From Galbibacter orientalis DSM 19592 (lineage in GTDB: Bacteria; Bacteroidota; Bacteroidia; Flavobacteriales; Flavobacteriaceae), in NCBI RefSeq assembly GCF_000260115.1, contig NZ_JH651379.1, positions 124,001-188,000 of the forward strand: a stretch of 64,000 nt of DNA, given 5' to 3'. Below, one piece after another: positions 43,180-54,926 of the stretch. How positions within the stretch are numbered: position 1 is the first letter of the stretch; every line of letters begins with the position of its first letter. The notes under the pieces were generated by a model, which was given only the letters and a program-made list of their open reading frames with translations, was not told where the DNA came from and made no database searches. Position numbers and translations under genes: made by a program.

Positions 43180-44073
43180 ATGAAAAAAATTATAAGCGTT
43201 TTAATCCTTATTGCTTTATGTATTCTTGGCTGGTATTTATTCATTAAAAAAAGTGATTATATCTATAGATTTGAAACCAAAACTAGTCAGGCTACAGTAT
43301 TTTATAGTATCTCAAATTGGAAAAAAACTAACGATTCTATTCACACAGAAACCATAGATAGCACCCTATATAAATCCATCACCCAAAAGCTAAATTATTT
43401 GGATAAAAACTATACATTATTTTGGGATATTAAAGCTGAAAATGATTCCGTTACAAAAGTAGCGCTTGGCATTAAAGGAGCTAAAAACAATGCCATTAAT
43501 AGAATTACAGCACCTTTTTTAAATACTGAATTTAAAAGTATGTCAAAGGATATTGCAATGAACTTTATCCGTAAATTAAAAATGAATCTATCTACTTTTA
43601 GAGTAAAAATTATAGGAAAAACAGATTCTCCAGCTAAAAAATGTGCTTGTGTAAATGCAAAAACAAAACTAGAAAACAAGGCTAAACACATGATGCGAAA
43701 TTACAATTACATAGCCGATTTTGTTGATGAAAACAATTTGCAACCAGATGGCAGACCAATGGTGGTTATTAATAACTTTAATAAAGAGGAAAATACTATT
43801 GATATGGATTTTTGTTTCCCTGTAACAGGAATTGATAAACTCCCTAAAAACCCTGATATTTTCTTTAGAGAATTAAAGGCTGTCCCATCTCTTAAGGCTG
43901 TTTTTAATGGGAATTATATGTATTCTCATCATGCTTGGTTTCAAATTTTTGATTATGCTGAAAATAATACTATTGATTTAAAAAACAATATTATAGAGAA
44001 GTTTCATAACAACCCTAATTTTGGGGGAGATGCATTGCAATGGACCACAGAGGTATATATTCCAATTAAATAA
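43180..44073 (+). CDS. membrane-anchored protein with GyrI-like effector-binding domain
   Basis: A 297-residue protein with one N-terminal membrane helix (SVLILIALCILGWYLFI), the rest probably in the periplasm or on the cytosolic face. Residues ~30-150 look like a polyketide-cyclase-like (SRPBCC) fold. Residues ~185-297 (VVINNFNKEENTIDMDFCF..) resemble the GyrI-like effector-binding domain found fused to AraC regulators and in stand-alone ligand binders. No DNA-binding domain is present. It is the last gene of the FG-GAP/haloperoxidase unit. A small-molecule-binding role is likely from the fold, but the assignment is from pattern memory. Confidence 0.5.
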   Translation: MKKIISVLILIALCILGWYLFIKKSDYIYRFETKTSQATVFYSISNWKKTNDSIHTETIDSTLYKSITQKLNYLDKNYTLFWDIKAENDSVTKVALGIKGAKNNAINRITAPFLNTEFKSMSKDIAMNFIRKLKMNLSTFRVKIIGKTDSPAKKCACVNAKTKLENKAKHMMRNYNYIADFVDENNLQPDGRPMVVINNFNKEENTIDMDFCFPVTGIDKLPKNPDIFFRELKAVPSLKAVFNGNYMYSHHAWFQIFDYAENNTIDLKNNIIEKFHNNPNFGGDALQWTTEVYIPIK

Positions 44074-44158
44074 TCCTCTATGCGCCTTTTAATGGAGAGA
44101 TTTATAACTAAATTTATAGAAACTAGAAAGAATCATTAATGGTCTCGCATAAGAATAG

Positions 44159-44398
44159 TAGCGGATTTACGCCCTAATTTTCGGTTAAACACAGACCTTT
44201 TTATATTTACTTACTTTCGTTTTAGCGATAAAACCGCTATTATTTTTATACATTGTAAGGGTTGCACAAGCCATTAATTTTATAAAAAAAGAGGATTATG
44301 CTAATTTTTAATAATAGGTAAATTGTTGTTTTCTTAGCATATGTCATTTTCAAGAACTGGTTTTAATTAGAAATTTGGTTAAAAAAAGCTTGTGCAAC
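44159..44398. repeat. non-coding element with nested inverted repeats beside the toxin gene
   Basis: The 336-base gap 44074-44409 has no gene. It holds TAGCGG (44159-44164) opposite CCGCTA (44234-44239), with a TAGCG/CGCTA hairpin at 44223-44239. A perfect 11-bp inverted repeat, GTTGCACAAGC (44261-44271) and GCTTGTGCAAC (44388-44398), lies 116 bases apart and ends 12 bases from the toxin stop codon. The region may be a mobile or recombination-related repeat linked to the accessory toxin-antitoxin pair. It does not match integron attC core sites on inspection. Confidence 0.45.
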
Positions 44399-44409
44399 AG
44401 CCACCATTG

Positions 44410-44832
44410 TTAGCCACTGGTTTTTCCTTTCAAATAAGTTTCTGGTGTCAATATTGCCAAATCACTTTTTTTGAAATCCTTTATATTTCTTGTCAGGATA
44501 ATATTTATTTTTCCAATTTGAACCGCAGAAAAATTTTGTAAAGCATCTTCAAAATCTTTAAATTCTGAATTAAGAGCATCCAAAACAACATCTTTGTCCA
44601 TTTCTATAATTTCTATTATACTTAATAGCTGTTTGATTTTTTCTATTATCAGTTGATGTTTTGCTGTTTTTCTCAATAAATAATAAACATTACAGATTAT
44701 GACTGGTGTTGTAAAACCATTTAGCCTTTTTTCTTCACAGCGATTTAAAATTTCAGTCGAAAATTGAGCAAAAGGTTCACGGTCAAAAAAGAAATCCATT
44801 AATACATCAGTGTCGATTAAAATATTGTCCAT
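44410..44832 (-). CDS. PIN-domain toxin, VapC-like
   Basis: A 140-residue predicted ribonuclease of a type II toxin-antitoxin system. The PIN fold is clear: NILIDTDVLMDFFFDREPF at the start with the first metal-binding acid at Asp7, a central acidic patch, FKDFEDALQNFSA near residue 92, and IILTRNIKDFKKSDLAILTPE at the end. Its ATG overlaps the antitoxin stop codon by one base (TAATG), so translation is coupled. VapC targets are often tRNA or rRNA; the target here is unknown. Confidence 0.87.
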   Translation of the reverse strand: MDNILIDTDVLMDFFFDREPFAQFSTEILNRCEEKRLNGFTTPVIICNVYYLLRKTAKHQLIIEKIKQLLSIIEIIEMDKDVVLDALNSEFKDFEDALQNFSAVQIGKINIILTRNIKDFKKSDLAILTPETYLKGKTSG

Positions 44833-45083
44833 TATAAATATTTTTCTTCTAATCGATTTCTAAGCTCTTTTTTATAATCCATATTTTTAGGCATTTTAAA
44901 AGAACCTTTTAAAGACTTCACAACTGGATTTAATTTTGTTGATTTATTGGCTTTTTCTTCTTTTGTTAGAATTTTTAAATAATTTTCTATAATATCAGAT
45001 AAGCTCCTGTTTTTATCTTTGGCATATTTTTTAGCTTTTTGGATAATTTCCTTCTCTATTGTCAAAGTGAGTTTTGTGTTCAT
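44832..45083 (-). CDS. antitoxin of the VapBC-like pair (DUF6364-like)
   Basis: An 83-residue protein in the position and size of a VapB antitoxin. Residues 1-42 (KLTLTIEKEIIQKAKKYAKDKNRSLSDIIENYL) look like a ribbon-helix-helix DNA-binding domain. The Lys-rich C-terminal half would wrap the toxin. It lies directly upstream of the PIN-domain gene with a one-base overlap and probably represses its own operon. The family name is from memory of similar proteins; the antitoxin role is supported by context. Confidence 0.82.
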   Translation of the reverse strand: MNTKLTLTIEKEIIQKAKKYAKDKNRSLSDIIENYLKILTKEEKANKSTKLNPVVKSLKGSFKMPKNMDYKKELRNRLEEKYL

Positions 45084-45187
45084 TTTGATTGACTTAATTT
45101 ATTATTGAATCAAAGATAAGAATTTAATTTATTGCACGTGCTGTTTTGTATTTATTTACACGTTTTCTGGCTTGTGACTATTATTCG

Positions 45188-45364
45188 AGTAAAAATACAA
45201 GACCGCTTCGCTGTAAGAGAAAAGAACAAAGACTAAATATTAACTATTATAAAATGAATAGTTTAAAAGAAATAACATTACTAAACTCCTCTTTTTATTC
45301 ATTTTTATTAATAGCAAGGGGACTATTTTAAAAACCTCTATTAACCCTTGATATATGTGGAATG
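45188..45364 (+). repeat. 177-bp direct repeat, copy 1
   Basis: Identical over 177 bases to 45466-45642 (offset 278). Similarity continues with mismatches to about 45400, where GTCTG and CAGAC can form a small hairpin. The unit starts AGTAAAAATACAAGACCGC and contains the 25-codon ORF at 45254-45331. Two identical copies this close suggest recent duplication. Confidence 0.88.
45254..45331 (+). CDS. possible 25-residue hydrophobic peptide (repeat copy 1)
   Basis: An ATG-to-TAA frame inside the duplicated unit encodes a 25-residue peptide beginning MNSLKEITLL and ending LLIARGLF, with a hydrophobic centre. It resembles small membrane toxins of type I systems in size and hydrophobicity, and such loci often occur as tandem repeats. 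No clear ribosome-binding site is visible, and AT-rich chance ORFs of this size are common, so this is speculative. Confidence 0.2.
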   Translation: MNSLKEITLLNSSFYSFLLIARGLF

Positions 45365-45465
45365 GAATAAACGCGGTCTGCTTTTATCAGACAACAATAA
45401 AAAAGAATCAAACCTGAATGTTTTTACACAGTCAATTAGGATAGTTTATAAATCATTAATGTCCA

Positions 45466-45642
45466 AGTAAAAATACAAGACCGCTTCGCTGTAAGAGAAA
45501 AGAACAAAGACTAAATATTAACTATTATAAAATGAATAGTTTAAAAGAAATAACATTACTAAACTCCTCTTTTTATTCATTTTTATTAATAGCAAGGGGA
45601 CTATTTTAAAAACCTCTATTAACCCTTGATATATGTGGAATG
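45466..45642 (+). repeat. 177-bp direct repeat, copy 2
   Basis: Second copy of the unit at 45188-45364, with no difference over 177 bases and one mismatch in the next ten. The downstream hairpin differs (CCCG/CGGA instead of TCTG/CAGA), with one paired T-to-C and A-to-G change. It carries the same 25-codon ORF. Confidence 0.88.
45532..45609 (+). CDS. possible 25-residue hydrophobic peptide (repeat copy 2)
   Basis: Identical in sequence to the ORF at 45254-45331. Preservation in both copies reflects the repeat identity and is not independent evidence of coding. Confidence 0.2.
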   Translation: MNSLKEITLLNSSFYSFLLIARGLF

Positions 45643-45695
45643 AAATAAACGCTGCCCGCATTTATCGGACAACAATATTTATAAATAAAACATAA

Positions 45696-45858
45696 TTCCC
45701 TCGACATAAAAAGCTTTCCTGCACCATAAAAAGGCTTTCCCCGCATGATAAGTACCTATCCCGACGAACTTTTATAGCTTCCTGCAGGTATAGTTACCCT
45801 TCCCGCCAGCTTAGTATGCTTTCCCCGCAGACTTGGAATGCTTCCCCGCAGCGGGGAA
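45696..45858. repeat. degenerate tandem array, eight units with a 21-bp period
   Basis: A TTCC (or ATCC) core recurs at 45696, 45716, 45737, 45758, 45779, 45800, 45821 and 45842, that is, every 21 bases with one 20-base step. A loose consensus unit is ATAnnAnGCTTTCCCCGCA. The last unit runs into the perfect 17-bp palindrome TTCCCCGCAGCGGGGAA at 45842-45858. The array is much richer in G and C than its flanks. Units have diverged and no spacer structure exists, so it is not a CRISPR array. The period equals two helical turns or seven codons. Confidence 0.72.
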
Positions 45859-46072
45859 ACAATTATTTACCCAATAACCCAACAAAAGTAGGATGTGCAA
45901 ACATAAAAAGGGCTCAAAAGGAAACAAAATCAACTACCTCTAGGCAAGCCTACGAGGTATTCAAAATAAAAATATTTTAATCCATTTCGACGTAAAGCCC
46001 TTCGGGAAACTCAGACAAGCTTTGGGAGATAAACTCTTCCAGAGGGATTAATTTTCAGGAATCCTTTTACAT

Positions 46073-54838: not shown

Positions 54839-54926
54839 GACAAGCTCAGGATGACAGACAAGCTCAGGATGACAGAAAAGATCTGGATGACAGACTAGCT
54901 CAGGTTAACAGACAATCAGGTTGACA
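54839..54926. repeat. 18-bp tandem repeat array, five units, between the PhoB- and PhoR-like genes
   Basis: Units start at 54839, 54857, 54875, 54893 and 54911; the last is 16 bases. The consensus is GACAAGCTCAGGATGACA, with drift in later units (GAAAAGATCTGGATGACA, GACTAGCTCAGGTTAACA). The first unit is preceded by CTTC, giving the TTCGACAAGCTCAGGATGAC element also seen near 10960. The remainder of the 54692-55136 gap is AT-rich with no gene. Confidence 0.85.

Follow-up and report, generated by a model that had tools for sequence, protein, structure and literature searches.

Our analysis identified the tandem array at positions 45,696–45,858 of the window, the whole 64,000-nucleotide stretch of the Galbibacter orientalis DSM 19592 genome analysed here, as one of four paralogous copies of a single ordered array. 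Judged from its sequence, it may be a dispersed non-coding intergenic repeat that is kept as a set of phased sites for putative protein binding, a reading to which we assign a probability of roughly 0.38. The array is situated in non-coding DNA between two genes and consists of eight units with core starts at 45,696, 45,716, 45,737, 45,758, 45,779, 45,800, 45,821 and 45,842. The first step between cores is 20 bases and the following six are 21, in agreement with the near-exact 21-bp period with one 20-base step that a preliminary description had given for 45,696–45,858. The same description spoke of TTCC cores, which is correct for seven units, while the fourth core (45,758) reads ATCC. Unit 1 (45,696–45,715, plus strand) is A-rich past its core, as are the opening units of the other arrays; it is followed by units 2–7 (45,716–45,841, plus strand) and by unit 8 (45,842–45,858, plus strand), which forms a closing hairpin. 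Each of the other three arrays has a hairpin at the corresponding end. This hairpin had been termed a perfect 17-bp palindrome, and it consists more exactly of two perfect 8-bp arms with a single central base between them. The block was also rightly described as G/C-rich within AT-rich DNA: its 163 bases have a G+C content of 50%, whereas the window as a whole has 33% and the flanks of 200 bases on either side have 24.5% and 36.5%. Six matches to three phased cores (at most one mismatch) were found in the window, five of them in this array, while 100 dinucleotide shuffles gave a mean of 0.42 and a maximum of 3 and none of them reached six. Tandem Repeats Finder, which had been proposed as a check, did report a repeat, but only for the last part of the array (45,800–45,849, period 22, score 58). 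A period-18 array of five copies (GACAAGCTCAGGATGACA, 2% indels) is present elsewhere in the window at 54,839–54,926.

A genome-wide search for the unit had likewise been proposed, and a query of 241 bases around the array against the own genome (G000, 4.51 Mb on two contigs) recovered three further arrays, all on contig C1: L009 with nine units (1339.7–1339.9 kb), L011 with eight (524.2–524.4 kb) and L010 with nine (509.4–509.6 kb). Exact triplets of TTCC at step 21 cluster only in these four arrays, with five isolated sites besides, and the version with one mismatch gave 65 + 62 matches genome-wide versus 23 + 22 for a reversed control pattern. All four arrays have an A-rich opening unit and a terminal hairpin of the GCTTCCC type in common, although the window array and L010 each have a changed base in one arm; by eye, the L009 hairpin loop matches the reverse complement of the L011 loop at six of seven bases, as an inversion of the loop would produce. 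The order of units is common to all six pairs of arrays, and the observed scores were reached by only 0, 0, 1, 1, 1 and 2 of 2000 order shuffles. Since unit order, A-rich start and terminal hairpin are shared, one array was copied as a block, and the four arrays are paralogous copies of it. They are tandem, non-coding at the level tested and present in several ordered genomic copies, as is characteristic of dispersed non-coding satellites. Replication slippage, one of three origins offered in the preliminary description, cannot on its own give four copies with one unit order, although units did duplicate, as is seen from a 42-bp dimer in L009.

When units were aligned by order, mismatches occurred in 17 of 188 core cells versus 299 of 799 other cells. 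Within the core the mismatch rates by position are 26% (T), 0% (T), 4% (C) and 6% (C), i.e. TCC is nearly invariant and the first T is as variable as some spacer positions. Across the four arrays 26 of 30 steps equal 21, the exceptions being three steps of 20, each the first of its array, and one of 22 in L010. The phase, whose loss in relatives had been named as a point against the earlier interpretation, is kept among the paralogues, and no end of an insertion element was met in the searches made. With the core kept while spacers drift, and with 26 of 30 steps at 21, binding of a protein on one helix face is the best fitting of the three options that had been put forward.

The window array is part of a lineage-specific block of 2.0 kb (44,074–46,072). 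In five of six congeners lacI lies 15–161 bp (aligned ends) from the counterpart of the gene at 43,180–44,073 of the window, whereas here these flanking genes are 2.0 kb apart; in the sixth congener this counterpart was not found in the DNA compared. The block contains the array, a pair of toxin-antitoxin type genes encoding a PIN-domain and a DUF6364 protein (44,410–45,083, minus strand), and two plus-strand copies of D1, a separate dispersed repeat of 235 nt that has further copies in the genome and carries a terminator-like hairpin. The second D1 copy (45,457–45,691) almost abuts the array and the first (45,179–45,413) lies 278 bases upstream of the second. D1-like head pieces precede the L009 and L010 arrays as well and are absent upstream of L011. 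Similarly, ruvB and an acyl-CoA oxidase gene are 96–347 bp apart in four of six congeners and 788 bp apart here, with the L009 array in between; in the remaining two congeners the acyl-CoA oxidase gene was not found in the DNA compared. The array was thus gained at two loci, the window and L009, and its presence is recent. A search with the array sequence at an E-value of 0.01 gave no match among 59 other relatives, nor was there a match in plasmids or phages, and a strict pattern of unit pairs found no relatives in species genomes and viral contigs, a set that may leave out the organism's own records. Repeated pieces of another intergenic repeat (GAATTCGTGGCA / TGCCACGAATTC) adjoin the L009 array (L009 2400–2740).

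A Pfam scan of the array neighbours returned PIN, DUF6364, LacI, acyl-CoA oxidase, RuvB, aldo-keto reductase, TacA and GNAT, and two neighbours had no match. No neighbour gene is common to the four own arrays and those of other genomes, among which the neighbours taken for L130 are approximate, and the comparison yielded no candidate reader protein. A linkage to toxin-antitoxin systems was considered and rejected: by Pfam, the window array (PIN/DUF6364) and L011 (TacA/GNAT) adjoin such genes, but L009 and the arrays of other genomes adjoin unrelated ones. Beside L010 we noted a protein of 81 aa without Pfam match that resembles an antitoxin by eye only.

Arrays with the same core and step but different spacers recur in other genomes of the family. 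Five TTCC cores at step 21 (two mismatches allowed) were matched in 156 of 397 family genomes, many among the matches listed being heptamer or coding repeats, and a reversed control pattern likewise matched many genomes (36 + 2 versus 24 + 3 for the control in G280). By their setting or stops we took 18 arrays as non-coding, namely seven in G402, five in G280, one each in G378, G286 and G061, and three in the congener G005. An initial count over the 15 arrays outside G005 gave 216 units, 823 mismatches to consensus and 201 steps, of which one was not 21. The three TTCC-type arrays of G005 have different spacers and comprise 28 units, with all 25 steps at 21; their unit order is shared by two of them (0 of 2000 shuffles), and the third is unlike either (675 and 1043 of 2000). 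With wider margins all 18 arrays amount to 251 units, 1064 mismatches to consensus and 233 steps, at least three of which are not 21, since the step finder overlooked all four steps of 20 or 22 bases that are known in the own arrays, halting at them or sliding over them, so that shift counts in other genomes are lower bounds. Undercounting is strongest near array ends and the counts are best for shifts inside long arrays, such as the G402 arrays of 18, 19, 23 and 30 units, throughout which no step shift was found. The contrast with D1 is large, as 24 gap openings were counted for 292 mismatches over 13 copies of this repeat, D1 being a single comparison family in which some copies are close to each other. 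The arrays were found via the TTCC step-21 pattern, which fixes several steps beforehand and favours the core, and mismatches carried along when a unit duplicates are not independent events. A constraint on the 21-base step is therefore suggested, not proven.

Scans without a preset pattern gave a best period of 21 or 42 in seven of ten arrays in 400 kb of G280 (one of the seven in a 189-codon frame and one in a 173-codon frame), a best period of 42 in two of six arrays in 200 kb of G402 and in one of five in 400 kb of G005, and no array with best period 21 in these parts of G402 and G005. In 464 kb of own sequence 21 was the best period in two of eleven arrays, and the scan recovered two of the three own arrays that this sequence contains. 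TTCC does not occur in all period-21 or period-42 arrays from these scans. As further observations, the 21-bp arrays of G402 (L117–L124) belong to at least four unit families, of which three are each found on two or more contigs, and heptamer arrays of the form TTCCNNN occur in several family genomes (G416, G306, G131 and others), with phase shifts modulo 7 among the G416 matches as listed.

We also considered whether there is a widespread, unrecognised intergenic class in Bacteroidota and Bacillota, with cores resembling TTCC(G)(C/T)A spaced two helical turns apart, free lineage-specific spacers and a putative reader protein on one side, and regard this as rather doubtful. Species genomes have at least 119 stretches with three copies of TTCCG(C/T)A at step 21, grouped with the window array by core and step pattern alone, from genera including Prevotella, Kaistella, Flavobacterium, Planococcus, Neobacillus and Treponema; of the 80 species-genome loci listed, 26 are not covered at the match by a frame of 100 codons. 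A sample of 395 genomes of the phylum had step 21 in 12 and step 24 in 3 genomes, coding and non-coding together. On viral contigs, stretches of three TTCCGYA at steps 18, 20, 21, 22 and 24 numbered 49, 2, 50, 16 and 69, and no frame of 100 codons covers the match in 7 of the 50 step-21 stretches. Steps 18, 21 and 24 are alike and lie mostly in open frames, so that step 21 is not special there among multiples of three; the viral matches are mainly coding repeats and do not support a wider class. Six of nine Prevotella-type records (L224, L239, L244, L249, L263 and L301) share a 21-bp element of four units, the last being a TTCCGCA-TGCGGAA palindrome (with a changed base in one record), and the other three do not. 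Some Prevotella-type elements have inverted flanks, e.g. TTTTATG...CATAAAA.

Two alternatives concern what the array might encode. A decayed heptapeptide-coding repeat, also among the options of the preliminary description, would account for a period divisible by three; each own array taken singly has at least one stop-free frame, two G005 arrays are stop-free in one common frame, and many TTCC step-21 matches elsewhere are within long open frames. We nevertheless consider it very improbable. Mismatch rates by codon position in the order-aligned units are flat (0.29, 0.31, 0.35), the base that would be third in the GGA codon is never mismatched, none of the frames is free of stops throughout the four own arrays, the six frames over 281 units of 22 arrays contain 98, 71, 90, 73, 64 and 70 stops, and steps of 20 and 22 bases are present. 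At the level tested the own arrays are non-coding. Alternatively, the array might be transcribed and act as RNA by means of its terminal hairpin and a recurring motif, which reads CUUCC on one strand and GGA on the opposite one. The closing hairpin of all four arrays and a terminator-like match at 45,842 are consistent with such an RNA, but the window array folds no better than shuffles on either strand (z −0.96 for both), Rfam gave no match in the window at the gathering score, and CsrA (PF02599) was not found in the genome by a search that detects it in 3 of 14 control genomes. An RNA function therefore seems unlikely, and a CsrB-type sponge RNA, which requires CsrA, was rejected on the last of these results.

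The more serious competitor is a selfish or neutral dispersed satellite that spread within mosaic intergenic repeats, in which the 21-base step would be a trace of origin and homogenisation without host function. We rank it just below the binding reading and regard it as nearly as likely. It would fit the position of the array in a lineage-specific block together with two D1 copies, the D1-like pieces ahead of three of the four arrays, the lack of anything in common between the flanking genes and the duplicated dimer of units in L009. Less easily explained by a satellite are the retention of the core after dispersal while the spacers drift, and the congener with identical core and step but different spacers. 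In the binding reading, an element with a defined start (the A-rich first unit), eight or nine units and a defined end (the hairpin) was copied as a whole to four chromosomal sites of the lineage; the TTCC core and the step of 21 bases, i.e. two turns of B-DNA, are kept while spacers drift, and a putative protein might bind the cores side by side on one helix face. Since the core, and probably the step, are kept amid drift, we take one-face binding by a protein as the most likely reason, and infer that the reader is a protein, that the array is read as DNA and not as RNA, and that selection acts on the step itself. If step and core are indeed kept while the rest changes, the arrays would offer a natural experiment on how proteins bind in phase, and their signature, being independent of overall sequence, could help to identify the reader protein. 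Should the satellite explanation be true instead, they would still be a clear example of a satellite in a bacterium that was copied as a block with its unit order intact.

A literature search returned no report of 21-bp phased arrays in the group of the host, and several known systems invite comparison. Iterons of plasmid origins are direct repeats of about two helical turns. The array has this spacing in common with them, but is chromosomal and consists of divergent units, and no replication gene was among the scanned neighbours, which speaks against near-identical iterons beside a rep gene. A CRISPR array, with identical repeats and unique spacers, was dismissed as well, because here only a core of 3–4 bases is near-constant and the remainder is related between units and arrays. 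REP elements with their TnpA-REP proteins are, in the passages cited here, dispersed intergenic repeats with a hairpin (PMC8266576, PMC3733652), as is the array, which differs by its eight or nine direct units. REP/BIME sequences are characterised in the cited part of PMC3733652 by many copies of a 20–40 bp palindrome, and only four arrays were found here. Moreover, the single Y1_Tnp match in the genome is flanked, by eye, by another palindrome, which differs from the array hairpin; this argues both against a REP/BIME assignment and against mobilisation of the array by this transposase. The match is a frame of 190 aa (L223, approximately 1431–1993) with a GCGCGA...TCGCG palindrome upstream, and by eye a similar piece adjoins an array in the congener G005 (L129). 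For the direct repeats of the heptamer TAACTGA, the cited part of PMC4679880 likewise describes short repeats between genes, also in five Bacteroidetes, proposed as binding sites. Those units are identical and 7 nt long, and in the main genome of that account most of them immediately precede start codons, whereas the units described here are 21 nt long with a core of 3–4 nt kept. There is also a likeness to the non-coding prokaryotic satellites of Subirana and Messeguer (2019, PMC6749651), whose dispersal is called rare in the cited part of that study. A two-turn step with a conserved core, as seen in our array, is not described in that part, and '21 nt' is absent from the main text, but the satellites it reports are likewise short tandem units, intergenic, species-specific and copied to several sites.
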